From assembly GCA_963680875.1 (NCBI GenBank), contig OY804577.1:106341906-106405905 (forward strand): DNA of 64,000 nt. Direction: 5' to 3'. Below, one piece after another: positions 15,510 to 48,300 of the stretch. Both the position numbers and the translations under genes were made by a program. Every line of letters begins with the position of its first letter. Position 1 is the first letter of the stretch. The notes below the pieces were generated by a model, which was given only the letters and a program-made list of their open reading frames with translations, ran no database searches and was not told the DNA's origin. Origin of the DNA: Bathymodiolus brooksi. Taxonomy: Eukaryota; Mollusca; Bivalvia; Mytilida; Modiolidae.

Positions 15510-17963
15510 GGTAATAACAAAATTACCGAACTCCGAACAATCTTACAAAGGGAAAGTCAAAACTCATAATTATATAAACAGACAAAATCAGTCAACAACC
15601 GGAAAACTGTGAAAACCGTAATGACCCTGACTTGGTACAGGCATTTCTAAAGAAATGGTGGGTTGAATCAGATTTTAAGGCGCCAAACCTCCCGCTCTCA
15701 TTACGGTTCAAAGGTTCCGGCTGTCACTGTAACAGTATTTAAATACAGGAACAAAATAGGTAAAATAGTTGTCAAAGCAGTACCATATTCGGTGACGTAA
15801 ATGTCAAAAATATTTTTACGTCACACATTGACAAAAAAAAATTCTTGACATATTTGACTCTTTATCTTTATACATTTTTACTATATGAAAATGCATCGCT
15901 TATAATTTTTTCTGCAGAGACGGAATATATTTCGACAAGATATTGGTATCGGAATATAAACTTTTTAAGAGATCGAATAAGGCGAATCTTTTTATAGCCC
16001 TGGTCCAGTAGCCTGTTTCTCAGATGAAGATGACGTTTCAGGAAATCAGAATAATTGCTACTGCCCCTTGCATAGCGAATCAATTGCGAGATGTAAACAC
16101 CATATGCAGGAGAAGCTGGTATATTGCTGCACATATTTGGAAAATTTATGATTTTAAAATTGAAGTCGTCCCGCTTATCATAAATTTTAGTACTGAGTTG
16201 ACCACTGTCGTCAAATTCGAGGTACAAGTCCAAAAATGATGCGGACGAAGCTGTATCGGTGGTCTCTTTAACTTCCAGCTCTGGAGGATATATCAATGGA
16301 AGAAATTCTGCAAATCTAGAATTATTGATAGATAAAACGTCATCAATATACCTGTATGTGAAATTAAAGGCTCTAGCCTCATGAATCTTCTTATCTTTTA
16401 CAAGCTTTTGAAGAAACTCCGACTCATATGAGTATAAAAATAAATCGGCTAGAAGAGGGGCACAATTCGTACCCATTGGTATGCCGACGACCTGCTGAAA
16501 CAGTGTCCCTCCAAAGGAGACAAATATGTTATCGATGAGGAACTCCAGCATACTGATCACTTGTTCCTCGGAGTAGCATGTTTTACCTTTATGAATTTTG
16601 TTTGAAAAATATGTGGAATTGTAGCCTAACACAACAAATTTTGAGCCATAGTTTCTATGACTAAAAGCTTTATGAATTGTTTCTTTTAAGCGGGTTTTTA
16701 ATTTGTCATGCGGTAGGGTGGTATATAGAGTTGAAAAATCAAAGGTTTTGATGGAGGATACCTGAGAGAAAGATCTTGATTTCAGGTTATCCAAAAGATC
16801 TTTAGAGTTTTTCAAAATCCACATGTGATTTATGCCACTACGCGAGTAAACAGTTTCACAATATTTCTGTTGTCCCTCTTTTACTGCAGACAGAATCTTT
16901 GTTAGGTGAATAGACAATTCTTTCGTCGAACAAGTTGATGATCCCGCTATGTACCTTTCTTTGTATGGTGTCTTATGGAGTTTAGGTATCCAATATAAAT
17001 AGGGTAAATCCTCAGACTTTTTACCAGAGGGAATGTTTAAAGAGGTCATGAATGATCTGTGGTTAGCTAGGATTTCATCTTTGTCGAACGAAGTTGGTTT
17101 GTATGTGGTATTACTAGAGGTGTTGCTATTTATACCTAATTCCTTGATTAGGCATTCGAAGTAATATGATTTACATACAAACACGATATTGTTGGAAGCC
17201 TTGTCCGCAGGAACGATAACATATTTGTCATGAAGAGAGGAAAGACACTTAACAGCTTCTTGGTCTTTAAATACAGACTTAGGTCGACTATTAACACAAT
17301 TTTTGAGTTTGTGAATCCGACCTTGTACTAGAGACCTAATTGTTCTAACCCAGTCTGACAAGGACTCTAACTCAGGATCTTGGTCTACTTCTCTCTTTAT
17401 CCACCTTCTGGCATAATCTTCAACAGCATCCATAATTATCTTGAAATTATGTTTCCAATTGATGTGTTGAGGTTCTCTGAATTTAGGACCATGAGAAATC
17501 ACCTTTCGGAGACTCTCATGTTGAATGATATTCAGATCACCAGTGATTACATGTCCAGATGGGTTGTATTGAAAAGGAGAGTGGGAGCAGTCACAAGTCA
17601 GAGGGTTCTTAAGGTACTCTTCTATGTTAATATCTTGCAATGCTTCTTTGTAGTTGAAAATTTTACGGCCAATGCTGTTAGTGTAACTATAGGAGACAAT
17701 GGGAACAGATTGATTTTTGAAATATGGTGGAATTTCTTTTACGACCTCTTTTCTATTAAGAATGTTGCTGATGTTAATAGCATCGATTCCTTTGTTAGCA
17801 AACGGAATATGGAGGAATTTTCTGTTGTTATCATGAAGAGGTTCAGATCGAACTGGTTTAAAAAGACGAAAGGACGCCACGTCACATATAATACTAGACA
17901 ATCTGTACTTAGGAGAAAAAGGATCTACGCCTCCTTTGTCAAGTCCAAAATCCCTAAGATCTT
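15510..17963 (-). mobile_element. 5'-truncated Penelope-like retroelement
   Basis: 2,454 bp, minus strand, with 7-bp direct repeats TGATAAA on both sides (15,503-15,509 and 17,964-17,970). The 3' UTR (about 355 bp) ends in a hairpin GGTAAT...ATTACC and is shared with the fragment at 11,394-11,537. The 5' end falls inside the reverse-transcriptase ORF, so the element was truncated during insertion. Copies A and B of the tandem repeat give the empty site. I recall relatives of this 3' UTR as common in bivalves. Confidence 0.8.
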
Positions 17964-17991
17964 TGATAAATCGACTTTGTAGCAAATGCAT
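15868..17991 (-). CDS. Penelope-like reverse transcriptase, N-terminally truncated
   Basis: A 707-residue open frame. The first about 9 residues are read from flanking repeat DNA and the target duplication, so the methionine at 17,991 is not the element's own start. Seen motifs: a DKASNN motif near residue 263 (the Penelope 'DKG' block), WIPKLHK near 334 (like the PKIHK block of Penelope RTs), DFSTLYT near 418, GIPMGTNCAPLLADLF near 503 and the catalytic YIDD near 548-551, then FLDLYL and a KIYDKRDDF block. A CxC plus H cluster near residues 133-147 precedes the RT. No GIY-YIG endonuclease is present downstream; it may lie N-terminal in full-length copies, as in the Naiad/Chlamys lineages, but this is inference. 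The frame has no internal stop, so the insertion may be fairly young. Retrotransposition needs the missing 5' part. Confidence 0.8.
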   Translation of the reverse strand: MHLLQSRFIKDLRDFGLDKGGVDPFSPKYRLSSIICDVASFRLFKPVRSEPLHDNNRKFLHIPFANKGIDAINISNILNRKEVVKEIPPYFKNQSVPIVSYSYTNSIGRKIFNYKEALQDINIEEYLKNPLTCDCSHSPFQYNPSGHVITGDLNIIQHESLRKVISHGPKFREPQHINWKHNFKIIMDAVEDYARRWIKREVDQDPELESLSDWVRTIRSLVQGRIHKLKNCVNSRPKSVFKDQEAVKCLSSLHDKYVIVPADKASNNIVFVCKSYYFECLIKELGINSNTSSNTTYKPTSFDKDEILANHRSFMTSLNIPSGKKSEDLPYLYWIPKLHKTPYKERYIAGSSTCSTKELSIHLTKILSAVKEGQQKYCETVYSRSGINHMWILKNSKDLLDNLKSRSFSQVSSIKTFDFSTLYTTLPHDKLKTRLKETIHKAFSHRNYGSKFVVLGYNSTYFSNKIHKGKTCYSEEQVISMLEFLIDNIFVSFGGTLFQQVVGIPMGTNCAPLLADLFLYSYESEFLQKLVKDKKIHEARAFNFTYRYIDDVLSINNSRFAEFLPLIYPPELEVKETTDTASSASFLDLYLEFDDSGQLSTKIYDKRDDFNFKIINFPNMCSNIPASPAYGVYISQLIRYARGSSNYSDFLKRHLHLRNRLLDQGYKKIRLIRSLKKFIFRYQYLVEIYSVSAEKIISDAFSYSKNV

Positions 17992-18815
17992 CTAATGTGT
18001 CTCAATGAAGTCTAGGATCAGATTGATAACAATCTAGTAACAATAGCAATAAGTAATATTTCGTTACATGTAGAACTTATCAATAGTGATAGACATCAAA
18101 TTAATTGGAAATTAATCTCATGATAAAATACCCAAACGCAATTTGTCAATACATCTGGAAACAAAAAAATTGTCATGTGTATGTTTAATGTTGATGCAGT
18201 GTTTCTTCATACATGTTACGTAAAATGAAGAAAAAATCAATTTAACTCTATAATATATGCATTATTTTATTAATAAATATGGATTCAATAAATATACAAT
18301 GCAAATCATGATTAGAAAACAAGTGCACAGCACTTTTATAATTTTTTCTCTTCAATTTCACTTACAAAGATAGTATTCACTGAACAATATATTACGAATT
18401 TTTTTAATTCCGCTTATTTTCGAAATTGCGTTTCCATTAGCAATATAATGGAACTAATTGATGATTTTCACAAATTTCTATCTTTCCATAGTTGGGACAT
18501 TACAAGGCGCCATTTTCGCCGTGCCAGTTTTTCCAGTTGGATTTCTCTATGATACATTTGTATCAGCGCCTATAAAAAAAACCATCAAGAGATAAAAATT
18601 CGTCAGTGGCTGGAGGAAAGTTTGTGGGTTTGCTTACGGATATTCAGTGCCAATCGTATAATATTTACTGTCACGGTATATTTCCGGAATGTGTAGTTAG
18701 ATAAAATTATTCCATAAATTTTTTTAATGAAACCATATTTTTTAATCTTTATATGGCACAGTATAGGATACCTTTCGCTATAAAGATTTGTTGATTATTT
18801 CCATTCAAGGCTTAA

Positions 18816-18831
18816 AGGTGACAGGAAGCGA
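18816..18831 (+). repeat. Kolobok left terminal inverted repeat
   Basis: AGGTGACAGGAAGCGA, directly after the TTAA at 18,812-18,815. It matches the reverse complement of 31,213-31,228 at 15 of 16 positions, and similarity fades inward. Confidence 0.9.
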
Positions 18832-19001
18832 TTTTTTGATTCCGTTTTTTCGACTTCTTTATGAAATCTATTTCAAAATAAAACAGAAAATATTATTCCC
18901 TTTCGGGAAAATCTTAAATATGTACCCGTATCCACCCGTTAAAGTGTGGTCACAGCGAACGATATACAATGATTACTTCCCCCTGAAAGAACTCTTCACC
19001 T

Positions 19002-19017
19002 ACGTCACACGTGCCCA
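19002..19017 (+). promoter_or_regulatory. 16-bp subterminal inverted motif, left
   Basis: ACGTCACACGTGCCCA, beginning 186 bp from the left terminus. Its exact reverse complement lies at 31,027-31,042, also 186 bp from the right terminus. It contains the E-box CACGTG and a CRE-like ACGTCA. It lies 66 bp upstream of the passenger-gene ATG. Candidate roles are transposase (THAP) binding site or promoter element; both are inference. Confidence 0.7.
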
Positions 19018-19414
19018 AGTCTACACAGGTAAACCAAACAGCTGATAGCGTGGGTAAAAAAAAATACATCAAAATAATTGAAATGGATAACGATTTTGAG
19101 GAAAGTGATTGTGAAGAAATGCCAGATTTAAATTTAACAGCATCTGCAGTTCAACCGTATATGTTTGAACCCACAAAAGGAACTGAAGCCGAAAAGTCAG
19201 CATGAGGAAGTGAAGAAAATTCAGATTCCGACGACGATCTAGAAATATCACATGGATCTGATACCATAGGATACCATAGGAACTACAGTGGACGCTGGCT
19301 TGTTGCCACTATGTCCGCCTCTAAATCCACATCATTGATGCGCGACTTTACGTCACTTCCGGAATTTGATCTTATGTTTATGTTTGCCGTAAAGTCATAT
19401 TTGCACTCTTGGTG

Positions 19415-22265
19415 CTACCAGTGCTCATCTAGGCCGATTTCAAAATTTTTAACTGTTTTTGCCTGTATAACTGATTCTGGGAGGCTATTCCATATTTCGA
19501 CAATTCTAACGACGAAGGTATATTTTCTCACAGCCTACTTGTTTTATCTTCATCTTCTTGCTATGTCCCCTTGTGTTTGAAGTTGTGTTTAGTTCAAACA
19601 TATCCACTGTTGTTAGAGGATCATAAATATCATATATTATTTTAAATACTTCTATCATATCTCCTCGCATTCTTCTATACTTCAGAGTGGGCATCTTGAG
19701 TTTCTTTAGTCTTTCGTTATATTCCATGTTTTTTAAAGTAGGTACTTGTTTGGTAGCTCTTCTTTGTACGTTTTCTATTTTTTCAATATCCCCCACTTTA
19801 AATGGAGACCAGACTGCTTCGGCGTATTCAATATGAGGTCTAACCAAAGCTTGGAATAAATATTTGAAGCTTTGTTCATCTAAATATGTATAAGTTCTTC
19901 TGATTAATCCCATGATGCTGTTTGCTTTGTTCACCTGATTTTGTATGTGCTTATTAAAGGACAAATTTTCATCTACAAATACTCCTATGTCTTTTTCTCC
20001 GTCAGATTGTTTTAACTCAATTATGTTGCCATCGTTATTATATAGGTGATAGTGTTTTGTTCCTTTGTCCACGCTTTTATTGGCAACTGACATCACTTTG
20101 CATTTGTTAGGGTGGAATTTTAATAGCCATGTATCTGACCAGCTTTGTAAGTTATCTAAATCTGCTTGAAGCATTTTCTCATCTTTTTCCTCTCTAATTT
20201 CTCTGAAAATTTTTGTATCATCAGCAAACAGATAGGTGGATGACTCTACCATCTCTGGCATGTCGTTGATATATATAACGAAGAGCATAGGGCCCATGAC
20301 ACTACCTTGTGGTATCCCACTTGTGACATGATGGCATTTGGACTCAGTGCCATTTACAATTACTTTTTGTGTTCTGTTGTTAAGAAAACTTTCTACCCAC
20401 TTAATTACTTTCTCACTTATTTTATACCTATGCATCTTATGCAGAAGTCTTCTATGTGGTACTTTGTCAAAAGCTTTCATAAAATCCATATATACTGAGT
20501 CAATTTTCCCACCCTTGTCAAGAATTTTGGTCCACTCATCCATAACTTTTAGGAGTTGTAGGGTTGTTGATCTCCCAGAGATGAAGCCAAACTGCTTGTT
20601 GCTGAAGAGCTTATTAGTTGACATGTGCTTTACTATAGTTTCCCTTACTAGTTTTTCCATGGTTTTGCAGATTACACTGGTCAGACTGACTGGTCTATAA
20701 TTTCCTGGTTCTGTCTTGTCTCCTTTTTTGAATAGTGTAGTGATGTTCCCTTCTTTCTAGAGTTTAGGAACCAAACCTTGGCACATAGACGAATTGAATA
20801 TAGTTGTTATAGGCTTTGATATTGTTGCACTAAGCTCCTTTAGCATTTTAGGGTGAAGACCATCTGGGCCACATGATTTGTTTACATCCAGATTTTGTAG
20901 TAATTTTAATATTTCACTTTCTTTGTAAGTTTTCTCTATGCATTCCTGTTTGACCTCTATAGGATGCATCAATGGTAGATCGCCCTCTGGTTCAATTGTG
21001 AATACGCTACTGAAGAAACTAGCCAGGACTTCCGCTTTTTCCTTATCTGTTGTCGTTTTCCTTTCTTCCCCTTCTTCTGACTTAAATTTTAGCTCTGATA
21101 TACCAGTGTTAGTTTTTCTTTTGGAGTTAGCATATTTCCAAAAAATCTTGGGATTGCTTTTAGCATTTTGTGCAATTTCTTTCTCCATATTAGCTTTTGC
21201 TTTTCTGATTGCGCTTTTAACTTGATTTCTTGTTTTGGCGTATTCCTGGTACTTTTTTTTGTCCCCAGTTTCTCTGTATCTAGTCCAACATCTATGTTTC
21301 TTTTTAATCTTCTGTACGGTTTTAGCATCCAGAGGAATATAGTTGTGTTTCTTAGCTTTGTTGTTGGCTTTTGTATTCATATGTGGTATATATTTGTTTT
21401 TTGCCTCATTGAACTTGGTTATAAAAATGTCAAACTGTTGCCCAGCATTTTTTCCTTTTAATATATCATTCCAGTCACACTGAAGAAAGGTATTCATATT
21501 AGTGTAATCCCCTTTGAAGTAGTTCCATCTCTCCGTTTTACATGATTTTTCCTCACAATAGCGTTTGAGTATAAATTCAAGGCTACAATGATCACTGTTT
21601 CCAAGTGGGCTAGTGTAATTTAGCTCTTCTATCATATTCTCATCATTTGTCAGTATTAGGTCCAGTGTGCTTGGTTCACAATTTTCTCTCATTCTAGTGT
21701 TTTCCGTAACATGTTGGAACATATAGCTATCTCTGATACTTTCTACGAAGTGTTCACTAATTTTGTCACCCTTGGTTAACCAGTTTTTCCAGTCAATTTT
21801 AGGGAAGTTAAAGTCCCCCATTACCATGATATGTGAGAACTTCTTTTCCTTTGATACCGTAATTAATAGTTTGTTAAGTTCATCTAGGTTCTCTGGACTA
21901 CTACTTGGACTTTTATATATACATCCCAGTAACAACATATCGTTGTTGTTTAGCTTAATCTGTGCCCATACACTTTCTTCAAATTTCTCCTTGAATTTTA
22001 TTTCTTCTGATTTCAGCTTCTTATTAATATATAATGCTGCACCTCGTTTGCTAAAACTTGTGGATTCACTTAGGAATAGTTCATAACCTTCTATTTGTAA
22101 TTCTGCTTTCCCCGGCATATATCTGCAATTCTTGGGGTAAACTTCTGTTATCCCAATCACTTCGTAGCTATTTTTTCTATCCTGTATTCTTGTCATCAAT
22201 TCACCCAGTTTGTTTGGCAAACTGTCTGCATTTGTATAAAAACATTGTATGCCATTAAAATCCAT
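19415..22265 (-). pseudogene. CR1-like ORF2 (endonuclease and reverse transcriptase), two lesions
   Basis: ATG at 22,265 (MDFNGIQCFYTNADSLPNK). The N-terminal part is an apurinic-type endonuclease with GITEVYPKN, MGDFNFPKIDW and NSDHCSLEF. The RT follows with CGPDGLHPKML, FMKAFDKVPH, GIPQGSVMGPMLF and the catalytic ADDTKIF. TAG at 20,757-20,759 replaces a tryptophan codon (after VPKL), with the same frame continuing on both sides. Near 19,540 a frameshift moves the conserved C-terminal block (VRKYTFVVRIVEIWNSLPES) into another frame, which ends at TAG 19,415-19,417. Without the lesions it would be about 950 residues, normal for CR1. The product would nick DNA and prime cDNA synthesis at the target. 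The two lesions suggest a recently dead copy. Confidence 0.85.
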
Positions 22266-22324
22266 CACCTTATTTACATTGGTTTCTGTTAAAATTTGAC
22301 TATTTACAGTGTTTTTGGAGCGTC

Positions 22325-23224
22325 TTACTCCTTCTTTTTGACCTTTACCACCCTCCTGTCTCCGGGGGGTCCTTTTACCAGGTATTTGTAGTTTACCGAC
22401 TGGTTATCATCCTCCAATACCTCATTTTTTTTCTTAGCTTCTGTAAGTTTTTCTTTATTTTGTAACCTTTCTTTTTTTGTCATGTCATGGGTTATACTTA
22501 GCTGCTTGAACTTATCTTCTGCGGTTGCTAAATTCTTCATATTAGCCATGAGTGACACCTTTGCCTTTTCATCCTCAAAAATGGCCCTCATTGGTCTTGG
22601 ATTATCAGAATCTACATCCTTTTTGCCTAGTCTCGTTACATTCTTTACCGTCTGTTTATTTGTACCAGTTATTTTACATAATTCATTTACTATTGCTATA
22701 TCTTCTACTTTTCTCTCTTTTGGTTCAGTTTTCGTTGACTCCTCTGCTCTAAATATTATAATATTACTTTTCCGAGCCATACTTTCTTTAAATTCTTCCA
22801 GCTGGCTTGTCAGTGTCCCATCCTGGTCGTTTCCACCTGTGTCGGCACTCTCTTTGTTTTCCTGGATCAAGGCTTTAACTTCATCTAGTTCAACCTTTTT
22901 GTCTAGTTTATTCTCCATCTCATCTAGCCTTTTTTCATACTTACTGAAGTATTTATTGCATCTCTCCTCTACTTCCTTCTCAATTTTGAGATTCTTCATT
23001 GCTTTTTCCTCACAAGGGGGGCAATACCAATGTAGGTCAGATCGTTTAGTTAGTAGTTTATACTCTGTGCTGCTTAATTTGACACAAGAACGACAAAAAT
23101 GTTTTCACAATATTCACACTCTAGCACCTCTGCTTTATCCTCGGTGAATTTGACCGAACAAACCTTACATGTCTGTGCTTAATGCATTCCCCTTGGTTGA
23201 GGTTACTGAGCCCTTGCGTGACAT
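22325..23224 (-). pseudogene. CR1-like ORF1 with PHD finger and coiled coil, frameshifted
   Basis: The likely start is the ATG at 23,222-23,224 (MSRKGSVTSTKGNAL). A PHD-type zinc finger follows: CKVC, CEYC, CRSC and WYCPPC. The pieces lie in different frames: a 1-nt shift near 23,168 and another near 23,100 break it. After the finger, the intact part starting at 22,999 has a Lys/Glu-rich coiled coil, an RRM-like segment (KSNIIIFRAEES onward) and a basic tail. PHD fingers in ORF1 of CR1-like elements are established knowledge. ORF1 binds the element RNA in related families. The PHD finger may steer integration to chromatin, which is inference. Confidence 0.75.
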
Positions 23225-23830
23225 GGTTCAAATATCAACAGGGCTTCCCTATTTCACAATCTAAGATCCAATGCCTTAGTTCAAACCCAGCAAGGCTTCC
23301 TTGCTAATAGTATGTTAATATATGATATTTTTATTTGTTGTTCTTGTAATATATCTTATGTGCAAGGCTTCCTTGCATAAAGCTGCTCTAGAAATTTTAT
23401 CTTGTATAAAACAAGGCTTCCTTGTTTTGGTATTTTTATTTGTTCTTGTATGATATTTTATGTGCAAGGCTTCCTTGCATAAGCTGCGGTTCAAATATCA
23501 ACAGGGCTTCCCTATTGCACAATCTAAAATCTAATGCCTTAGTTCAAACCCAGCAAGGCTTCCTTGCTAATAGTATGTTAATATATGATATTTTTATTTG
23601 TTGTCCTTGTAATATATCTTATGTGCAAGGCTTCCCTGCATAAGCTGCTCTAGAAATTTTATCTTGTGTAAAACAAGGCTTCCTTGTTTTGGTATTTTTA
23701 TTTGTTCTTGTATTGTATTTTATGTGCAAGGCTTCCTTGCATAAGCTGCGTTAGAAATTTTTATTTTGTGCAAAACAAGGCTTCCTTGTTTTGGTATTTT
23801 TATTTGTTCTTGTATGATATAATTTTGTTT
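23225..23830 (-). promoter_or_regulatory. CR1 5' region: tandem 263-bp monomers
   Basis: Two full monomers begin at 23,225 and 23,488 (GGTTCAAATATCAACAGG), and about 80 bp of a third (from about 23,748) follow. They abut the ORF1 ATG exactly. Each monomer holds five short palindromes with the core GGCTTCC: AGGGCTTCCCT, AGCAAGGCTTCCTTGCT, TGCAAGGCTTCCTTGCA twice and AACAAGGCTTCCTTGTT. By analogy with monomeric L1 promoters these are probably promoter units; this is inference. Confidence 0.65.
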
Positions 23831-24473
23831 ATTTTGTGCAAATCTTCCTTATTTTAATCAATATATGTTTCTAATGTTGAGTTCCTTGTATTAGATTTTT
23901 AAGTAAGCCTACTGAAGCAGTCTGGTCTTTGTGTATTTAGTGACAGGGTATTTAGTGATGCTAATGAATTTGACGAGGACGAAGAAACTGAACATGTTAG
24001 TCATTGGTAAGTTTCCAATTATTTTACAATTTTTCTTTCTTGTAAGAAAGAGTTTGGAGTAATTAAAATATTGATATGAATTTGTGGGGGGTCTATACTT
24101 TTTGCGTGTGTATTTTTTTTTCTGTATCTCAACCTTCATATCCTACATGTAGTTATATGTAATATTTCAGATTGATTTAATTGATTAATATGGAGTAGCT
24201 GTTTTAAGTTTAAGATATACAATGTCTATGTAGAGACTCTATCTGGTTTTTAACAAAAAACACTTTTTTCATCTATAGCATAGATCCTTGCATTTTGTGA
24301 AGTATTTCGAATCTGGTTCCATTCGATATTAGTTTGGTATACTTTAATTGTTAATTCAAATAATTGTAGATTGTATGTGTGTAGGTAAATTATTTTAAGA
24401 ATGGGCCATGCTTAATTAAAAACTTATCATGACTCAATTTCAAATAAAGTTTTGTAATAAGAATAATGTCAGA

Positions 24474-25492
24474 GGTTGTTAGTAAAAGTGGTAACCCGGG
24501 CCCGGGTCCGGTTCCAAAATCGTATTTTCTTTATTACATCTTTATTAATGCATTAATTTTAATAAAATTTGAACATAATGCATAAAATTATGTATTTTAT
24601 CACATTTTTTAAACAAATATAAACAAAAATAGTCTTTATACAAAATATCGGCAATACAAGTTTTCAAAGTTAGTAAAAGTTGTAACCCAGGCCAAGGCAA
24701 AATTTTCAATTAATCGATGATTACACCTTTATTTCTCGCTAAAACTTCACAATATTCAGAATGAACATTTTTCAGTATTAAAGAAATGTAAAAAATATTT
24801 TAAATTCAATGGTAATGTTCTCTTTTGTCATTATGGGGCCATTTTAGATTCTGATAAAAGTTGTAACCCGGGCCGGAAGTCATGCATTGTTTTGAGGGTA
24901 CTTGAAAATTGACCTGAAAAGATTATGATCGTCTATATCTTTTTTACTACTCAATATAATCGATTCAAATTTTGGTCAGCTTGAGATATCAGTATATACT
25001 TTACAAAAATATAAAAAAATATTGTGTATTAGTATCAATATTTACCTGTACACCCAGTTACCTGTACACCCACGTGACCAGTCTTTGTTTACAAATCTTA
25101 ATATATTAATATTGCATCGTGGAGAAAAAAGAAAACTTTTTTTTTTAAATTGATCAAATAAATTTGTTGTTGTTGTATTGAAGTATGTTTTTACAAAATT
25201 TCAAGAATTTTAAAAAAGTAATAAAGGTGCAATCATTGATTAACTGAAAATTTCGTCTTGGCCCGGGTTACAACTTTTACTAACTTGGAAAACTTATATT
25301 GCCGATATTTCGTATAAAAACTTTTTTTTTTATATTTGTTTAAAAAATGTGATAAAATACATAATTTTATGCATTATGTTCAAATTTTATTAAGATTAAT
25401 GCCTTAACAAAGATGTAATAAAGAAAATACGAATTTGGGCCCGGGTTTTTGGAAACGGACCCGGGCCCGGGTTACCACTTTTACTAACTGCC
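24474..25492. mobile_element. foldback transposon with 8-bp target duplication
   Basis: 1,019 bp flanked by perfect ATGTCAGA direct repeats (24,466-24,473 and 25,493-25,500). The inverted arms are about 280 bp each, beginning GTTAGTAAAAGTGGTAACCC next to a CCCGGGCCCGGG-type block. The motif AAAAGTTGTAACCC followed by GGGCC-like sequence recurs at about 24,672 and 24,857 and in reverse at about 25,262. No ORF. An 8-bp duplication suggests a hAT-like transposase in trans. It sits in the first preserved intron of the P2X7-like gene. Confidence 0.85.
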
Positions 25493-26309
25493 ATGTCAGA
25501 CAATCATTGTTGTTTATGCGATGTGTATCGGCCTACACCAGCAGCCTGAACTGCATAACTTGCAAATAAAACAACTTGTACTACACCATTCATATCTTGC
25601 TCTTGTACATGTACAACTAGTACTGTACTACCTCTATGACGGTATACATTATTTATGTAAATATGCACCTTTGTGGTATTCATATTGTAAGAAGTAATTG
25701 CTTTGTACTTTTCCTTTATGTAGGTGTAAATGTAACCATTGCACTACTATGTCAACAAATAGAGAATCAAAATGTTGCAAAGATACACACATTGTTGATG
25801 ATAAAATATTGGAAGCTGAAATTGAATGTATTACTCTCCATGAAGGCTTTCAAGCAAACTGTTTAAACCAGTATGTTTTAGAAACATCATACTATGAATA
25901 TGTACAAGAAAATGGACCACTTGAGGAAGATCAGTTGATTCACAAGTAAGTGTTTTACATGTAACCAAAATAAGATGAAGGTAAACGATTAAATAATTGA
26001 ATGTATATTTTATTAACTTTTAAAGGTAATAATTGACAAAAACTGTTAATTTGAATGAATTATATACTCTAAAGTAATTGAAGTAATTGTTTGACTTTTA
26101 ACCAAGACAATTTTTTTCAACAATTGGAGGAACTAGAAGGATGCAAATTTTATTTTAGTGTCTTTTTTTCAAATGTACAAATAATACATGTGTATGTCCT
26201 AAACAAATATATGTTATCACCACAAACAAGGAAACATTTCCATAGTCCCTACTCATCATGAACATTCATAATTTGTTTATATATATAAATCTTCACATTC
26301 ACAAACTCG

Positions 26310-26455
26310 ACTCACAGCTGCAAGTGATAAAGTTTACCAGTGGCTTGTCCATGGTCGGTGGTTCTCGCCGTGCACTCCGGCTTCTTTCACCACTAAAACT
26401 GGTCGCCATGATATAGTTGAAATATTGCTGAAAGTGGCATTAAAACACCAAAAAT
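26310..26455 (+). mobile_element. SINE S1 tail fragment
   Basis: The body and tail match S1 (TGATAAAGTTTACCAGTGGCTTG, split by small changes, then CACTAAAACTGGTCGCCATGA and GAAAGTGGCATTAAAACACC). The tRNA-like head is missing. It lies in the last intron of the P2X7-like gene. Confidence 0.7.
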
Positions 26456-26712
26456 TAAAAAAAAATCTATCATATTCACAAAGTAGTTATTCTTAATATT
26501 TCAGAGTGTACAGATATATTGCCTATAGAAGATTTGTTCAATGGATTTACCACTGACTAGGAAAAAGAAACCGTAAAGTGTTGCCTTCATGTGTAATTAA
26601 AACAATAAGAGACCAGTTTCCTTCTCAGCAGTATTGTGGATTTAAATATCCAAATTAAAAAAAAACAATTAACAACTTTAGACTAAATATAATATACTAT
26701 TATTATTATTAT

Positions 26713-29700
26713 TCATTCTCTCTGAAATCTAGAGACATGGCTTTGAATGACATCTTCTTTGGGTCGCCTTGGTGTGCTGTGGGAGAGGGGTGGTGGTCTT
26801 CTCTTGTCATCACGTCGTCTAGCTTCATATGCTTCAGCAAATGTTCCATGAAGTTCCCTTCTAAATAACAGGTCTTCAAAGAGATCATCAACATAACCTG
26901 ATAAAAAAAAAATCCTTATAGGAATAATATAAATTATAACAATAACTTTGCAAGCTAATAATATTTCCTGTATTTCCAGTAAATCAAAGAACCGACAATA
27001 CAATGGTCCACAATACACTACACAAAATTATCTTCTTTTGCAGACAAAAGATTAACTATATATCTCCTAAATCAACTAATTATACAGAATTAGTATAATA
27101 TCATTTCTTTAACAACACCTTCTCCTTTTCGACCCTTTGGATATGAAATCCTGTATTGTCGTGTTCCATCCATAGTGACGGCCTGAGTTCGTTTCGAGTT
27201 TTCAGAGAAGTGTAAGGCAGCCAAAAACAGTCTAAAAACATAATAAATCATTTATGTAAATGTCATCAGCAACATGAACAATTAATGCAAAAATTGTCAT
27301 GTCTGGTTTGAATGTATTCAATATATATTATACAAAAACTTTAAAAAAATGTCTGCAACTACAAGATGAAGTATTATATATTCCTGTGTATATATATATA
27401 TATATTTTTTTTTTACAGTAATTGTTCCCTTCTATTTCATTTTTAACAATGAAGTACTAGTATAATGTTAGCTTTGCAAAATAAAATATATTTACCTTGC
27501 TTCCATCTGAACATGGAAGAAATGTAGAGATTTAGGGGCAAAAAAGCACACAATTCTATGGTAGGACTCGAGACTTGAAGTCTGTTCTCCTGGTGATAAT
27601 TTCTTTATGTCGTTCCATAAAATTCTTTGCTTGATGATCTTTTCAATTTCTTGGTGTGCCTTGCAACCTGTAATAAATACTGATAATTTAATTTACAGTG
27701 AAAAGCTTATTTTGTAGCTGTAAAGTTGGAGAAATATCAAATACCAAACTGGGCAACCAAACATAATTTTCTAAAACACTTTGTTAATACTCAAAAAAGA
27801 ATTTGCTTCTGTCAGTTGTCATAGACAAAGTCACTTTCTTTGTAGATAAAACTTAACTATTTTAATAGACAAACAGTTTTAGTACCTTGTTTTATCCATT
27901 CCCTATCTTCAGAAACATCATGAGCACACTGAGGAAACATTTCTCCATGACCTTCATGTATATTGGAAATATGGTTTAGAATTGAAGCATATTTCTGTTG
28001 GACCATCTCCCCATCACCATTACTGCTAGCAGCACACCAATAAATATGGTTACTTATTGACCGTGCCCATCTACCAACAATTGTAAATCCTTTTCTTTTC
28101 CTTTTTCCAATTTTCTCCAGTTTCTTGTAAACTTCTAAAATGTAAAATAAATACATATGTACATTTTCGTATATTCCCAGATATGTTATTTGTTTTTTTT
28201 ATACAAATATTGCACATTTCTCAAATCATTGTATTTAGTTGTCAACAAACTGAAGAAAAAAAACAGCGGCACAAGATGTTTCCTTAATGAAAAATATAAT
28301 AACTCTTTATGAAAAGAAAGTTTAAACAGCAATGGTGAACAATTCCACCAATATCAACAAAACAAACAATCACCTTTCACCTGAACTCACAAAAGACCAC
28401 AGCATATGATGTTGGAAATCCAGGTCCTGGCTTGGGACAGCCACAAACATGTGGCAGGGTTAAACCAGTTGATGGGATCCCAAATCTTTCCTTTTGATAA
28501 TTGGGTTTCAATGTTGACAATTTTATTTAACTTTTAATTACCCTTACAGCACATACCTTTAGCTACATGCCAAACATCAAACATATGATTTACGTCTGGA
28601 TGTTCGTCTCTCATATATCTTTTGACGGATGAATGTCTATCGGTTATCAAGGAACTGACAACAACTTCATTTTCATGCAAGTAGGACAGACATCTTTTCA
28701 AACCCTCCAACTCCATAGCATTGGAACTTGTTACTTCATTACTCTAAAAGAAGAAAGAAATAGATCAAATTAATCCATATAACATGTACATTTGAATTCA
28801 GTTAAATGTACATAAAGGATTTTTTTTTGTGCAGCATCAGTCTCGGTTAAAACAATTTTCTTAAAATATAATAATTAATACTTTAGTATTGTTCATTTAA
28901 ATATCAAATTTGTTACTATGGGTAAATATAATAATGAAAACAATATTCACCTGTACAAGCTGAACATCAACAACTTTATTATTGTCCAGGTTCATAATGC
29001 TGTATGCACCATACTTGGCTGTATGCCCTGGAGAACAACATCTTGCATCCCCACCAAGCTTCACCTTGTTCCCATTTCTCCTTATCTCATCAATAATGTC
29101 GGACTGTTTCATCTGCCATACATCGGTAATTGTTGGAACTATGTATGCATTCTGTATTGACGAATATGTCCTCTCACTAAAACATTGTATAGATGCATGT
29201 CTGAAAAATGTGAGAATTTTAGATATGCTGCATCCAGCAAACATCACTGCACCTGCAATTATCAAATTGCCCAATGGCATTGTTCCAGTAAATGGCTGGC
29301 TACTCCATTTAAATGGCTGATTGCAATTGCAGTCTATAACAACTGAAATTGCAGTACCAATAATGTGCTGTTTTGTCATTTTCCCTTTCTCCCCACAAAC
29401 AGAACATTCCTTTTGAAAAAGTTCAATCAGTTTGCTCTCAAATACAACAAACTTTCTCTCTTTTGCTGGAACAATGTTATTAGGCATTTGTTCTGGTGAT
29501 GCATTATCTGCACATTTTTCTGTTGATGGAGTCCAGTCTGCATCAGTTTCATCATCCTTATTTGTGTCAACCTCAAATTCTTCAGGTTCAGATGAGGAGC
29601 AGTGATAATGTCCTGTAGTTTGTGTTGCAGCATTTGACATTTCAGTCTGAAATACATATTGGCTTCCAAAATTTTTCTTTTCCTGAAATGATACAAGGAA

Positions 29701-30946
29701 AAAAAGATGGAGGGACTGGAAAAAAAACATGTTATATCTATGTACATATATTTAGTGTAAACATTTACTTTAAATAAATTGTTTAAAATATATTAATGTT
29801 TCAACCATTATTTTGGTTATTATTGAAGTAAAACTGAAGTATACATGTATCATTTAAATTGCTACATACACACACAAAAGATCAAGACAATTACCGTGCT
29901 TTTTGTTTGTATATAAGCATTGTATCGTTCTGGCATTCCAATAGATGTCACTACTCTATCTCGCTGCACTTCACATGTTTCATTTTCAGCCTCCTGGATA
30001 CATGTACTGTCATCTGTGTAGTTTGGTTCAGTATCATCAGCCTTATCCAATATGTTTGACAAAGTCTTAAAAGGGAAATAAATGGACCAAATGATTAACT
30101 ATATTTGTACTTATGTCTGTGCATATTTTTTAGTATTAAGAGTTAAAAATTATACTAAGAAATTCTAATATTTGTTCAAAATAATTATGTTATCAAAAAT
30201 TATGTTTTGATATTAATTTACAACATAATGGATAAAATTGTAATAAAAAAACCAACCTAAAAATGTATCATTTTTATTGAAATTTATATTCATATCTTCA
30301 GGATGACAAATACAGATAATCTTTGTTAGTATTGACAAGTTGCAGATCATGTTAATCCGATACGAAGATTATTGGTTATTATGGTTGATTAGTAACCACT
30401 AGGGGGTTGACATGAAACATATTCACATCTGGTGCGTAAACAAAGACATCATTATCTTATAAAATGATAATAATTCATATATACGACCAACTTTTATTTA
30501 TATTGCGATATTTGAAAAAATCGAGTTTTTTTCACAACACGTTAAACAAAATAAAATAGAAATAAAAAGTTAAATTATATTACCTCAATGCGTCTTCGTT
30601 TTGTGACAGCTAGAGATTTACGGCAAACTTTTCTTTTTCCAATTTCTTCCGTACTGACTTCTTTGTTGATAGGTTTCGAAAAGTCAAATAAAGTCGGTTC
30701 AGCGTCAGGCTTTAAAATCAATTTCTTCATTTTGTACCCATTGGAAGCGGCAAATAAGGGATTTACTACAAACTGTTCATTGGTAAAGTGCTTTGCACAA
30801 AGCCTAGAGCTCTTCGATGGAACGAAATCCTTCCTTTTCACCCTTATTGTCCATAACTTGCGGCGTTTGTCATCTTTAGGAAATTCAAACATTCCTATCC
30901 CTTGGCCTGACCTAGTTTTACAGTTATATGCGACACACTGCACCAT
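26713..30946 (-). CDS. Kolobok THAP-domain transposase, 8 exons, 723 aa
   Basis: Exons, from the conserved frame and GT/AG borders: 30,946-30,584; 30,065-29,895; 29,682-28,951; 28,743-28,557; 28,134-27,886; 27,667-27,496; 27,231-27,119; 26,897-26,713. They sum to 2,172 nt with consistent phases and no stop. Exon 1 is a THAP zinc finger (MVQCVAYNC, LCAKHF, conserved W and FPKDD), the sequence-specific DNA-binding part. The catalytic region has CSVC and CNC ligands (near 271-298), GGDARCCSPGHTAKYG (Asp about 390), ITDRHSSVKRYMRDEHP (Asp about 457) and TSSLESYHR (Glu about 601), a plausible DDE set as in Kolobok. HVAKG, MFPQCAH and RTQAVT blocks also fit the family. It would bind and cut the element ends and insert at TTAA. 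Its stop lies 54 bp from that of the convergent passenger gene. Expression was not shown; splicing is inferred. Confidence 0.88.
28380..28490. repeat. dispersed repeat fragment in transposase intron
   Basis: About 100 bp including CAGGTCCTGGCTTGGGACAG and GTGGCAGGGTTAAACC, resembling a repeat I recall as common in bivalve sequences. It lies in intron 4 of the Kolobok transposase and does not affect the exons. The superfamily is not known to me. Confidence 0.4.
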
Positions 30947-31026
30947 ACTAAATATAGTAGAAAAGTTTCGCTCCGATAAATTTGTAAGATGCTCGGGTAG
31001 TTAGCAGTGTATTTACATCAACTGAC

Positions 31027-31042
31027 TGGGCACGTGTGACGT
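31027..31042 (-). promoter_or_regulatory. 16-bp subterminal inverted motif, right
   Basis: TGGGCACGTGTGACGT, the exact reverse complement of 19,002-19,017, and 186 bp from the right terminus. It lies 81 bp upstream of the transposase ATG (30,946), so both genes start just inside one copy. Confidence 0.7.
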
Positions 31043-31212
31043 ATACTTGAAAGGTAGATAACTGTGTTAGTAAATTGCGCGCGGAATAATTATTGATTTT
31101 CAATATCGATTTTATAAGGGTAGGACGTGATTTTTTTTTATAAAAAATATTCTGTGACCTATTCTAAGATATAACGTAACGTTTTATCGTTTATTTGTAC
31201 TTTACACAAAAT

Positions 31213-31228
31213 TCACTTCCTGTCACCT
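31213..31228 (-). repeat. Kolobok right terminal inverted repeat
   Basis: TCACTTCCTGTCACCT, followed by the TTAA duplication at 31,229-31,232. It pairs with the left end with one mismatch. Confidence 0.9.
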
Positions 31229-31552
31229 TTAAAGCTAATTTGTAGTTTACCCAAGGTTAAATCTTCGATTTGTTGGACAACAATAGATGCCAATAAAATG
31301 CTCGTTAAAGGACTAATTTGGTGCCGTCTACTTTAAACAGTCAATTATTTTAGTCGAAATTATTGGAAAAAATCTAAGAATACCAGCTCAATATTATATG
31401 TTATATATATATATATATAAACAATTCTTTCAATAGCTGATTTTAAATGCGACATTTAAAATGTCATATAAATTAAAATAGTACTAAAATAAAGACAGAT
31501 TCTAAAATAGGAAGAAATTAAGATACTACCATTTTGCTAAGACAAATATATA

Positions 31553-41260: not shown

Positions 41261-42200
41261 CGTAATGTGGTTTATTCATGGACAAGATAGACAAACACCA
41301 CCGCAAAGACAATATAGCGACGCCGCTCAAGGACACCATGCCGTGGGCCAATCAAATTTGTTAGGTAGACCAGCCACGAAGAGAAGGCGACCGCTATCTA
41401 CACCCTCGCAGGGTGAATAGGGGTGTCAGGGAGAACAAGACGTTTCTCAAGGTGACGAATCGAGCAGTATTAACGATGTAAATATAGATGATTTAAATGT
41501 TGATTGTTCTTTTTTAACTGTACAAAATAAATTGAAGCTATTGTGTTTAAATTGTTGTGGTCTGAATTTAAGATTGAATTATCCTGAATTTGGTGAATTA
41601 ATCTGTCAACATGATTTTATATGCTTACAAGAAACAAAAACTGATGACACTGATCAAATTAATTTTCCGGGGTATATATTTAAAACAAAAAACAGACAAA
41701 AGTTTTCACATAGAAAATCGGGCGGGATTGCTTTTGGATATAAGGAAAAGTTAGATAAATTTATAACTATTATAAAAAATGACAATAAATTTGTATTTTG
41801 GGTAAAAGTGTCATCCACATTATTTAAATTAGATGAAGATGTTTTAATTGGTGTTGTGTATATACCACCAGAATTCACCTCGTACTCGTCTCAAGAAGCA
41901 TTCAATGACATAGATTTCGATATAAGAAAATTTTCGAGGTCGTATAAATATATATCTTTGGCGGGAGATTTCAATGCAAGAACGGCTGAGCTTAAAGATT
42001 TTTCGGTATTTACAGAAAATGATTTTCCAAACGGAGGCGAATATTTACTAGAAAATTATATATCTTTTTTAACTGATTCAAATTTACCACTAAATAGAAA
42101 AAATATAGATAAAGGAAAAAATAACTTTGGAAAATTACTAATAAATCTTTGCAAAGGACAAAACTTGTTTATCATGAACGGACGAGTAGGAAGTGATATA

Positions 42201-42348
42201 TACAATATTGGTCTGTTGACGGTAAATATAGAATTTATTTCACAAGGCTGAGAAACGGGGTGAAAGACGAGCTTCTAGCGAGTCTTTCTCCCCGTTTCGC
42301 GCCGAGTCAAATAAATTCTATATTTACCGTCAACAGACCAATATTGTA
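42201..42348. repeat. 148-bp palindrome at the insertion edge
   Basis: TACAATATTGGTCTGTTGAC on the left is exactly inverted on the right (42,329-42,348), with the arm continuing through GGTAAATATAGAATTTATTT. The centre holds a second inverted pair, GAAACGGGG and CCCCGTTTC, around CTTCTAGCGAG. The left arm begins inside the retrotransposon ORF, so the palindrome copied about 15 bp of target sequence into its right arm. Confidence 0.85.
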
Positions 42349-42645
42349 TTTATCCTGCAATCCACGATGTCCTAAAAAATAATCTTAACTCGTAAAAATG
42401 CATTTTTTAATGCAACGGAATCCTCACTATTTGGCGTAGTAAAATACCAGATTTTTTTTGCTGACAAAAATTCGCGAACAAATAGTTCTCAAAAGGAAGT
42501 GAAATAACTTTATTTAAGTGAAGATTTATTGATTAAGGTGAAAATCTATATAGAAAATTGATAGTTTAGAACCTGAAATATATATATTTAATATGTTTTT
42601 CATAGATATGAAAACACATTAATTTAGCGATCATACGTCACATGC

Positions 42646-42906
42646 GGTCATTCTTAAATACGCCTGCAGTAGTAACCAGGTAAATATATACGCCTGTGTG
42701 AAAAGATATACGCCTGCAACTATATGGTTCACTTTTATTTTTATTTTTTTATATCAAATAATAAACATCCGATATATTCCTTTTACTAGTTTATATTAAA
42801 AAAAATAAATAAAAAAGAACCATATAGTTGCAGGCGTCCACCTTTGTATGACACACAGGCGTATATATTTGCCTGGTTACTACTGCAGGCGTATTTAAGT
42901 ATGACC
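42646..42906. repeat. long palindrome with ACGCCTG repeats
   Basis: The arms are about 110 bp. The left arm carries TACGCCTGCAGTAG, TACGCCTGTGTG and TACGCCTGCAAC, each with an inverse in the right arm, ending in AACTATATGGTTC/GAACCATATAGTT and an A/T-rich spacer of about 40 nt. A 3-fold GCCTG motif within each arm is notable. Confidence 0.85.
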
Positions 42907-43098
42907 CACACAGTTTGTAAACATGTGAAAGCAATACACACATACATGTATAGACGATTCGAGCATGTTTTAAGTAAACTAGGTAGAGTAGAGAAAACAG
43001 AAAGATTAATCATTTATCTCAACAAACTGAACTGATTCACGGAAATGTATTTAACAACGATGTCAAACACTCAAATGCTCAGTTATTGGGATATTTAG

Positions 43099-43440
43099 TC
43101 ATTTGTGAAAATTGTGTACACATTCACCATTTGTTATGGATGACCACGCCGTAAAACATAGAACTAATTTGACTTGACATATTTGTATTGGAACTGTAAA
43201 AAGGAACATCGGGATTGCTTCGACACGAAACATCAGAAGTGCTACTGGCTGTAGAATTTGTGGAGGTTTTACGAGGTAAGTTTGCTGAAAAGCATTTCTG
43301 TTAGTTTCACCTTCAGTGTTGCTGAGGATGTTTGATATTTTCTTGTGTCTTTCCTCACTCAATGTTGAGTAATTATTAATAAATGCCACATTGTTATGCC
43401 CCGATATTTGCATAATATCTATCCCCTTCACATTGTTTTC
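43099..43440 (-). pseudogene. tyrosine-recombinase C-terminal remnant
   Basis: The translated minus strand contains MQISGHNNVAFINNYSTLSE, resembling the GH...INNYS block of Crypton-like or other transposon tyrosine recombinases, in which the final Tyr is the nucleophile. The Arg and His residues that should lie upstream are not recognisable in frame. The downstream tail is Ser/Asn-rich. It may be the passenger or former driver of the surrounding insertion. Identification rests on one motif. Confidence 0.45.
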
Positions 43441-45267
43441 TCTTAACTTCTGGACGGGATAAGATATTTTCTGGCACTGATTGATTAATGTCTAATTTGC
43501 AACTATCCTTCATTTTTTTCATGAGACTGGAAAGTTTTCTTTCATGCACTTTTCTACCTGTTTCTAAAGCTCGTACAAATAAATTATGTATTTTGCGACA
43601 ATGCAAGTATATAAAGGAGGAGAAGCTAATACCAATCTTCTGGACTTTACATAGGTTTCAATAGAAAATTGGAATTTATTTTTATAGAATAAAATAAAAC
43701 TTTCATATATACATGGTAAATTGAAGAAAATCAAAATAGAGATCTGATTTAGTGTCAACAAGCACCAGATATGATTTTAATTACTATATTTAACGTCTGT
43801 TTGTATATCATAATTAAATGAATTAATATGCATTGAAGTCTACATGTATGTAGAATCCCCACCAACTATTTTCTTCATATCAAATTTGCTATTATTAAAC
43901 CATAATCCATTGATTGGTAAATTACATAATGCGATGTCACTAAGGAACCAAGAATATTATGGACATAGGTGTTGTGACCAGAAAAATATTAGAGTGAAGG
44001 ATATATTTTTCTGGAATGAACAATATTTACATGATAATGTTGGTTGTTGCGAGTAATGACTAATGTGCGAATATATTTTCTGAGTCGGATCATACAAAAA
44101 TGCATTTTGTTCCTTTTTTCTTGTTATTTTATTAGTAAATATATAATAACATGTATTTTAATTATAATCAATGCTATATTAATGTCTTTCAGATGAATGG
44201 CTGGATTAATGGTTTAACAGTGTACAATGTACATGTGATGTTTGAAATAAGTGCAAAGACTATATATGAAAGAAATAATTGCATAAAAACCTATGAACGT
44301 TTTATAAAGATCTGATTAAACAAAGGACATTTTTCAAGAACTATCACTCAGTTGTTGCATACAGGCCAGGGGTATGTGAATCAGTTTCAAATGGAATTGC
44401 ACAAAATAAAAAATGTACTGTAATCCTGATCAACAGTGAGTAGAATTCCAGCAGATAAAACACTAGTTTCAACTGACAAATCATACAACTTTGTTGGAAT
44501 TTTGCAAAAGAAAAAAATGTTTTAAAAAAAGATGCAAAATGATTGGAGGAAGTGACTGAATACAATTATTCCAAATGGTTAAAACAAATTATATAGATAT
44601 TTTGTGGTGTCATAAAGAATTCAGAATATAAAAAATTATCTATAATTTTAAAGTGACTTGATGCAATAGCAGGAATATGTGTTATTTTCACCTTGAAGAA
44701 ATCTACTATCTGATATGTTGAAGTAATTGGTGTGAATTAATTGAACATTTAATATGAAGAAATTTTATAATAAAATATATGTAGTAATCTTAGAGTTTGA
44801 TGTTCAAACTGTACTGAGTTATTTAACCATATACCGTAAGTGTGTTTAGTAAAGATTGTGGTGTGTGACTTCCCAGAACGTTTCTGTTATAAAGGATGTT
44901 AATTTCCTCATCTGTTGGAGGGCATGCCCTCTTTGGTTTATTCCCTTTGTCCTGTAGTTTTAGTTGCTTTTGTTTTGTTTTCAAAGCTTCCCTGTCAAGT
45001 TATAAATGATTCGGATTTGTTTAAGATTTTTGTTTTGATTTTTATTGACTTCTAGGATTTTTTTATCGTAAAATATGTATAAAAAATATGAAATTTTAGA
45101 ATTATTAGTTTCATTTTGTCGGTTTGTAAATTTACAAATAGTGAGAACGAAAACATTTATTAGAAAAAGACGACGTCGATTATTGACATTGGTTACGGTT
45201 AATATTTTAACTCCTTCACAGGAGAGCAAAAACACAAAAAAGTAGTTCCGGAATCTATGGGCGGGTC

Positions 45268-45345
45268 TTAAAAGTTTATTCGTAGGTTTAAAAGTTTATT
45301 CGTAGGCTTCAAAAGTGTATTCGTAGGCTACGAATAAAGCAAAAA
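45268..45345. repeat. TTTATTCGTAGG repeat cluster
   Basis: Three direct copies of TTATTCGTAGG or TGTATTCGTAGG and one inverted CCTACGAATAAA, then TTTATTCGTGTGG. They sit within 130 bp of the right edge of the 3.2-kb insertion and may be terminal binding sites. Confidence 0.6.
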
Positions 45346-48300
45346 TTTATTCGTGTGGTATATTTGTACAGCAAATGTACTGATTGCAGGATAAAGTAAT
45401 ATAGGTGAACTTACTTGCAGGAATGCAAGTGCTGTAGATTATTTCATTTGTTCTCCAAATTTTATAAAATGTATTGGTGATTTGACTGTACTTGATTTTA
45501 GTAAATGTTTTTCTGATGTTCACACGCCACTCAGTATCACGTTTGAAAGCAATGTTTTTGAAGATAGTGATAGTGATATAAATGCTTTAGAAAATACAGA
45601 ACACATTGTAAAAATAAAAAAATGGGAAAATGAAAAATTACACGAGTTCAGAGGTAATTTTAACAGACAGGCTATTTCTGATCTTCGTAATAAATTACGT
45701 GATTTGGATGCCTCTAGTGTAACACAGGAGCAGGTGAATATTGTGGTAAATGAATTTGGTAAAATACACATTAATTCTGCGAAAGAAACATTTGGAACTA
45801 TTACTAAGTCTAATAACAGAAAGAAAAAAAAAGAAATACTAAAATTAAAAAACCATGGTTCGATTTAGATTGTAAATTTGAGCGTCAATATTATAGAAAA
45901 ATGAAGCGTAAGCACAAATTTAGAAATTCAGATAATTCTAGAAAAGAACTCAAAGAGGCCGAGAAAAAATATAAAAAGCAGATGGACGCTTCTATTAGAA
46001 AATATAGACAAAAAATGAAGAAAGAATTGAAAACTTTGAGATCGAAAAATCCAAAGGAATATTGGAAAATATTAAACAAGGGCCAAAAGAAAAAACAACC
46101 AAATATTTCTATTGATGTATTGTACGAATTTTTTAAAAATCTAAATGGAGCTCTGGATCATGATGATGTTGAGTTAAGTGTTTTATCGGAAAGTTTACAA
46201 GAAAACCTAAATTTTGATAATTTAAATATACACTTAAACGACAGTATTACTCGTGACGAGATTTTACATGTATTAAGAAATTGAAAAATGATAAGGCGTC
46301 TGGGGACGATATGATAAGAAATGAATTCATAAAATCAACTCCAGATATGTTTTTAGCATTATACGTCGATCTATTTAATCTTATTTTTAATTCTGGTAAA
46401 ATTCCAAATACTTGGCTCGCAGGCAATATTGTACCTTTTTATAAAAAAAAGGGGCAAAAACTGATCCTAAAAACTTTCGACCTATTACCATTTTGAGTTG
46501 TTTTTGAAAATTATTTACATCGGTGTTAAATAATAGATTAAATACTTTTTCAGACGAATTTCTCCTCTTAAATGAAAACCAGACAGGTTTTAGGAAAAAA
46601 TATTCAACTCTAGATAACACTTTTGTTATATATGGCCTTTTTGAGCTACTAAAATTAAAGAAAAAGAAACTTTTCTGTGCATTTATAGACTTCGAAAAGG
46701 CTTTCGATACTGTGTGGCGTGATGGTTTGTGGTACAAGTTACTTATGTGTAATATAAAGGGTAAAATGTACAATATAATTTTAAACCTGTATAATAATAT
46801 AAAATCAAGAATTGTTTATAACGATTCTGTTTCAAATGTTTTCCCATGTTTAAACGGTGTTAGACAAGGCGAAAATGTATCTCCGTTTCTGTTCGCATTA
46901 TATCTTAATGATTTGGATACTTTTTTGACTAGTAAAAATACGCAAGGGGTTAAAAGCATTTCCGAAGACTTCGAAAACGATTTACAAATTTATGTGAAAT
47001 TATTTACTATTCTTTATGCCGACGATACAGTACTTTTGGCAGAGTCTGCTGAAGAATTGCAGTCGGAGTTAAATTATTTTTATGAATATTGTGAGAAATG
47101 GAACTTAAAAGTAAACACAAACAAATCCAAAGTAATGGTTTTTTCAAAGGGGAGGTTACCTATAAATTTAAATCTTAAAATGAATAATATGGAATTAGAA
47201 ATAGTAAGTGAATTCATACACTTGGGTACAATGTTTCAAAGAACAGGATCTTTCAAGAAAAATAAAGTTAATCTTGCAGAGAAAGCATCTAAAGCTATGT
47301 ATGACATTTTAAACAAGGGAAGAGTACATAATTTATCTGTAAGTTGTCATTTGGATTTGTTTGATAAAATAATTATACCTATGTTAACCTATGGATCAGA
47401 GATATGGGGTTACGAAAATATTGACATATTAGAAAAAGTACATGTAAAATTTTGTAAGCTGTTGCTTAATTTAAAAACTTCAACACCAAATTTTATGTTA
47501 TATGGCGAACTTGGTAGATACCCTCTGAATATAACAGTTAAGTTGAACATTTTGTCATTCTGGTCGAAATTAATTGACGGAAAGCAATCAAAACTATCAT
47601 CTCTGATCTATAGATTATTGTATTTGAAAACTCATGGAAATAATACTTTTTCATGGATTAATTTTGTTAAATCAATACTTGATGACTGTGGTTATTCAAA
47701 CGTTTGGCATACTCAAAATTTTATAAGCCATACATGGCTAATTGAAAGCATTAAACTGAGATTAACCCACCAGTTCAAACAAAATTGGCATTCTACTTTG
47801 CAAATATCTCCAAAAGCATTGAGCTATAGATTATTCAAGTCGGATTTTAGATTTGAAAAAGATTTAGACGTCCTAAATGACAAAAATAGATTTACTTTTT
47901 GTAGATTTAGAACATCCAATCATAGATTACCGATTGAAGTAGGGCGCTGGACAAATGTAGAAAGACACAATAGACTGTGTCAGCTATGTCAATCTCGCGA
48001 GATTGGTGACGAATTGCACTATGTATTACAGTGTCCAAATTTTGTAACTGATAGAAAAAATCTAATTCCAAAATACTTTTTTAACAGACCAAACACATTA
48101 AAACTGTCATCATTATTTAACAAAAAGAAACCTGAAATTGTTCGCAAATTATGTAAGCTTATTGATATAATAAATAAGAAAATTAGTTCTCCTTGATAAA
48201 AATAAATCACACCTCTGTTAGTATTTGTATCATTTGTATGTAACGTTTAAACATTTTTTTCCCCATAATTTGAATTCAATGTACACCCATAATCTTGATA

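Follow-up and report, generated by a model that had tools for sequence, protein, structure and literature searches.

The closest described relatives of the locus analysed here are the Kolobok DNA transposons, whose ends carry 5'-RR and YY-3' (PMC9587614) and for which the THAP domain has been given as a superfamily feature (PMC6004289). Within this superfamily, the Kol0 lineage was reported to encode KolX, a protein that resembles the C-terminus of P2X7 and has its cytoplasmic ballast fold, and the same study concluded that P2X7 arose when KolX was fused to a P2X4-like gene, and that nanor originated by domestication of a KolX (Kojima and Bao, 2022; PMC9587614). The KolobokP elements treated there have long direct repeats, of about 450 or 660 bp, at their termini (PMC9587614). 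Ballast (ZCD) genes have also been described as host genes of ancient origin whose neighbours are conserved (Rump et al., 2020; PMC7016195). The ballast cysteines act as zinc ligands (PMC7016195; PMC9587614), and the GDP-site residues of P2X7 are R546, H547, R574, R578 and K583, with R546 and R578 alone being found in invertebrates (Rump et al., 2020; PMC7016195). Here we compare with these systems an element from the bivalve Bathymodiolus brooksi, lying in a stretch of 64,000 nucleotides that is referred to below as the window.

The element and its transposase

The element occupies positions 18816-31228 of the window (Table 1), with perfect 13 bp inverted ends and TTAA on both flanks, and its terminal arms of 25 nt, TTAA included, show 92% identity. 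An exact inverted pair of TTAA plus 13 bp at a spacing of 2-20 kb was found once in the window and never in 20 two-base-block shuffles. A sequence-only reading of this DNA had described a Kolobok-type element bounded by TTAA, with inverted termini enclosing an intact THAP transposase and a convergent second gene whose stop lies 54 bp away, and each of these structural claims was borne out: the transposase is on the minus strand, the passenger is on the plus strand and both lie between the inverted ends. The TTAA target-site duplication of the Kolobok superfamily is present, the termini read 5'-AG...CT-3' and so follow the 5'-RR/YY-3' rule, and the transposase has a THAP domain (Pfam PF05485, E 2.8e-15) together with, as judged by motif, a DDE core that contains C/DxxH and in which a zinc finger precedes the E. 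Long terminal direct repeats were sought at the element ends and none was found, both direct-repeat families of at least 40 nt being located at 23225-23860; an identity as KolobokP was rejected on this ground. The length of 12.4 kb is inflated, because nested insertions sit inside the element. When the right-hand 173 bases were compared with the 2.0 Gb genome of the same species, 40 scored matches of 47 candidates were obtained at 79-100% identity, the window included.

Table 1. Positions of the features of the element, numbered from the first letter of the window.
Feature	Position	Strand	Basis or remark
Left TTAA target-site copy	18812..18815	.	Read from sequence
Left terminal inverted repeat	18816..18828	+	13 bp, exact
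Passenger (KolX) exon 1, left piece	19083..19260 (right edge approximate)	+	Frame; comparison with L037 exon 1; TGA at 19203-19205
Nested non-LTR retrotransposon	19260..23935 (edges approximate)	-	Exo_endo_phos_2 E 1.1e-14, RVT_1 E 6.2e-38
Passenger exon 1, right piece	23935..24006 (left edge approximate)	+	Frame; comparison with L037; ends in split Trp codon TG/G
Nested inverted-repeat element (~1 kb) in passenger intron 1	24474..25492	.	Inverted arms; 8 bp flanking duplication ATGTCAGA, read by eye
Passenger exon 2	25724..25946	+	Pfam, PDB, alignment; ballast WCxCxxC, CC, CIT
Passenger exon 3	26505..26658	+	Pfam, PDB; AYRRFxxW, PSC, IR, QYxGF; TGA 26554-26556; end codon TAA 26656-26658
THAP/DDE transposase gene, 723 aa, eight exons	26713..30946	-	Splice sites and open frame; predicted splice model
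Transposase exon 8	26897-26713	-	
Transposase exon 7	27231-27119	-	
Transposase exon 6 (E)	27667-27496	-	
Transposase exon 5	28134-27886	-	
Transposase exon 4 (second D, DVWH)	28743-28557	-	
Transposase exon 3 (first D)	29682-28951	-	
Transposase exon 2	30065-29895	-	
Transposase exon 1 (THAP)	30946-30584	-	
Right terminal inverted repeat	31216..31228	-	13 bp, exact
Right TTAA target-site copy	31229..31232	.	Read from sequence

All seven predicted transposase introns have AG acceptors and GT donors, and the joined frame contains no stop; "intact" is used here in this sense of an open reading frame. The translation carries C2CH, AEPTLF, GGDAR, ITDRH, DVWH, a histidine/cysteine zinc-finger pattern and LESYH. 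In the THAP domain, C2CH and AEPTLF were found, and the fixed-spacing P-W-F pattern was unmatched, with the P and the W visible by eye. The putative catalytic residues are assigned by motif, and no Pfam model scored above its cut-off on the DDE exon. A scan of viral contigs found no relatives of exon 3.

The passenger gene and its decay

The two ballast-bearing exons of the passenger, joined with the stop read as X, match Pfam P2RX7_C (PF20478) at E 1e-14, and comparison with PDB returned P2X7 (E 1.2e-6, residues 476-594). All seven zinc cysteines align with those of rat P2X7 (477, 479, 482, 498, 499, 506 and 572). In the P element a guanine nucleotide plays a cofactor role, and a similar role for KolX was considered here and dropped, since two of the five GDP residues of P2X7 are kept (R546 and R578), with Y at 547, I at 574 and S at 583. 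The passenger had been taken for a P2X7-ballast-like gene; the domain holds, whereas an intact gene had to be rejected, given two in-frame TGA codons that break the reading frame and a split exon 1.

Comparison with L037, one of the diverged transposase families of this genome, indicates how the split came about. KolX exon 1 of L037 is one open frame that ends at a split tryptophan codon (TG/GTAAG) and is followed by an exon beginning AG/G TGC, and the window junction 24006/25724 is the same. Because exon 1 of L037 is unbroken and has this junction, the retrotransposon most likely sits inside the coding exon, so passenger exon 1 was probably split by the insertion, and the window copy probably no longer makes a full KolX.

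The frames of the retrotransposon fall within 19506-23104 and contain an in-frame stop of their own, between 19506-20756 and 20757-22403; a target-site duplication was looked for and not found. Direct repeats of about 117-156 nt lie on its 5' side, at window 23225-23860. Intron 2 of the passenger contains a dispersed repeat (window 26305-26459) with matches of 78-90% in L030, L031, L032 and L037. Elsewhere in the window, a 707 aa open frame at 15871-17991 (-) gave a sub-threshold reverse-transcriptase match (RVT_1, E 0.00089), a second retrotransposon is present at 41421-48193 (+; Exo_endo_phos E 1e-6, RVT_1 E 2e-30), and about 1.6 kb at 58698-60301 (-), where three minus-strand frames are open and their peptides are repetitive, is likely a tandem array.

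Ballast genes elsewhere in the genome

A genome search with transposase exon 3, in which the best 150 of 198 candidates were scored, provided three further transposase families that, like the window, could be read to exon 7 or 8, namely L031, L032 and L037, with DDE-exon identities to the window transposase of 49%, 39% and 33-35%, respectively. Convergent KolX exons lie directly downstream of the transposase in all four families. In L031 and L032 the last KolX exon was recognised, split over two frames in L031, and L037 has three KolX exons. The expectation that the ballast gene would always be found inside the element is therefore upheld across the readable families, but not within the window's own family, where the two copies examined (8 kb each, from 39 other scored terminus matches) lack KolX: L029 matches window 27389-31232 at 96-97% and then ends, and L030 is internally deleted, retaining the terminus together with parts of exons 1-2. 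Divergence of the transposase and divergence of KolX did not correlate (Spearman -0.2, Pearson 0.12) in a comparison of little power (six pairs from four families, 37-48 KolX residues).

On the evidence of the TTAA copies, the AG...CT termini, the open THAP/DDE frame, the convergent ballast gene and the pairing in three other diverged families, we regard the locus as very probably a Kolobok DNA transposon of the Kol0 type, inserted at TTAA, with a second gene that has since decayed. The putative Kol0 assignment is made from sequence features: KolX is recognisable by sequence as the second protein with the ballast fold, in a broken state in the window copy. That the ballast exons belong to a host gene, into or beside which a Kolobok element inserted, would agree with the account of ballast genes in Rump et al. 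(2020; PMC7016195); it is, however, scarcely credible here, as the inverted ends enclose both genes and the three other transposase families show this convergent arrangement as well.

Two related repeats were observed in the same searches. A THAP-bearing repeated family (L001-L003, L005-L008) is 38-40% identical to the window THAP over residues 1-86, and four of its seven members also have a piece resembling transposase exon 7; in L002 and L003 this piece follows after about 0.9 kb, as would be expected had the DDE exons been deleted. At G000:C15:15476199-15486949, own-family pieces are arranged in tandem with a period of 2829 bases, each with the right end and a stop-bearing transposase exon 3.

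The new lead is a set of ballast genes in TTAA elements that have no detectable DDE core, beside an otherwise known pairing. The genome contains 1801 candidate places for P2RX7_C, of which the best 150 were scored; all 150 are above the curated cut-off, and the passenger of the window falls outside this set. None of these 150 lies within 15 kb of the best 150 of the 198 transposase matches, the nearest being 36 kb away, a result that covers the best-scoring ballast matches because the best 150 of each list were compared. Real neighbours are missed in such comparisons: the THAP exon of family B (see below), 2-3 kb from KolX, is absent from the THAP matches that were compared (82 of the 150 listed).

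We examined 24 of the best 150 ballast loci (L009-L028, L033-L036), chosen by score and class and not at random, and they fell into three TTAA-ended families, A (10 loci), B (10) and C (4). Family A has the ends TTAA-AGTCCCACTGGC and GCCAGTGGGGCT-TTAA, both present in 7 of 10 copies, and measures 3.8-5.9 kb; family B has TTAA-AGGGAAACTTCGCGATTT and TTTGCGAAGTTTCCCT-TTAA, both present in 4 of 10 copies, at 4.35-5.39 kb; and family C has the left end TTAA-AGGGATATTGTCTACCAG in 4/4 copies, with the sequence examined stopping short of the right end. A THAP exon convergent to KolX was found in at least 4 of the 10 family B copies (L017, L016, L010 and L011; profile E 2.4e-9 to 4.4e-4), with a Pfam THAP match of E 2e-8. 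A Pfam search of 69 frames, drawn from a single copy of each of the families A, B and C (35 of 35, 17 of 28 and 17 of 23 listed frames), found P2RX7_C in three and THAP in one; one frame matched DUF6679 (E 0.0016) and one Metallothio_Pro (E 0.0095), both weakly. Three ballast matches at G000:C2:62043448-62057783, about 7047 bases apart, form a tandem array.

Transposase exons 2-8 gave no profile match below E 0.06 in any of the three families, and these elements are most simply read as deletion derivatives moved in trans. It is conceivable, though unlikely, that they are autonomous, with a transposase too diverged for the profiles or, in family C, situated beyond the sequence examined, where its right end lies; the profiles were built from few sequences, and even the DDE exon of the window has no Pfam model above cut-off. 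Nevertheless, the same profiles, built without L037, detect the L037 DDE exon at E 3.7e-85, whereas in A, B and C they return THAP alone below E 0.06. Likewise, tblastn with the whole transposase reaches E 1.9e-34 on L037, compared with best values of 4.8 or 7.0 (depending on the database) in A and B and nothing up to E 10 in C.

The role of KolX and comparison with known systems

In the Kol0-type reading preferred here, the THAP domain would bind the element ends, the DDE core would cut and join at TTAA in a cut-and-paste manner, and KolX, a small protein built around zinc, may serve the transposase as an accessory factor, a helper role suggested by the recurrence of the pairing and the retention of the zinc cysteines. 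Two observations speak against such a role: family A has spread with a damaged-looking frame, and family B shows near-neutral substitutions. Seven of 10 family A copies have a stop as the codon preceding the first KolX cysteine; barring an intron at this point, their KolX is probably damaged. The single-exon KolX of family B has an uninterrupted frame of 199-206 aa in 5 of 10 copies. A comparison of 5 of the 10 family B copies gave 23 nonsynonymous and 11 synonymous differences (neutral expectation about 3.1 to 1), a count from which the other five copies were dropped as missing the core pattern and for which copies had been picked by profile score, favouring conserved ones. Among the differences common to at least two copies, none is synonymous and one is nonsynonymous. 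A claim of selection on KolX within family B was accordingly dropped.

These features, along with a broken passenger beside an open transposase frame in the window, would fit KolX as passive cargo, such that ballast genes hitch-hike in Kolobok elements and in deletion derivatives moved in trans. We hold this to be a serious though tentative alternative to a helper role; against it, both the pairing and the zinc cysteines have been kept in families that share only 33-44% transposase identity over the DDE exon, and an intact KolX frame of about 200 aa survives in family B in 5 of the 10 copies, which were picked by score. More speculatively, KolX might be a mobility factor that acts apart from its own transposase, family B (THAP and an unbroken intronless KolX, with DDE lost) might be a separate kind of parasite, and the DDE-less elements might be the main ballast carriers of this genome, a combination that we consider quite improbable.

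The P2X7 tail may have been gained by fusion with a KolX-like gene, as Kojima and Bao proposed, and a transposon as the route for this acquisition, also put forward in the sequence-only reading, is supported here. It is not new, because it was published by Kojima and Bao (2022; PMC9587614); what our analysis adds to the proposal are examples from one large genome and several diverged families. If the 24 examined loci typify the rest, host genes would have a plentiful source of free-standing ballast genes to capture, and the job of KolX could be tested by comparing elements with and without it. No description of DDE-less ballast elements was met in the portions of Kojima and Bao (2022; PMC9587614) on which we draw, which does not establish their absence from print.

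Compared with KolobokP, the element belongs to the same superfamily and likewise has its second gene on the opposite strand, but it lacks long terminal direct repeats and its second gene matches P2RX7_C rather than a His-Me nuclease (PMC9587614). With the C-terminal ballast domain of P2X7 the passenger shares the PF20478 match and the seven aligned zinc cysteines; unlike P2X7, it has no channel part and retains only R546 and R578 from the set of five GDP residues. As in nanor and the stand-alone ZCD proteins of Rump et al. (2020; PMC7016195), a C-terminal ballast domain belongs to a small, channel-less protein; however, fewer than ten ballast genes per species were given there, in contrast to at least 150 above the cut-off here (best 150 of 1801). 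The closest likeness is to Kol0 with KolX, which has the TTAA duplication, the 5'-RR/YY-3' ends and a transposase accompanied by a second, ballast-domain protein (PMC9587614); the present case differs from it in a window KolX that is broken and split by nested insertions, and in a genome where TTAA elements that lack a detectable DDE core carry ballast genes as well.
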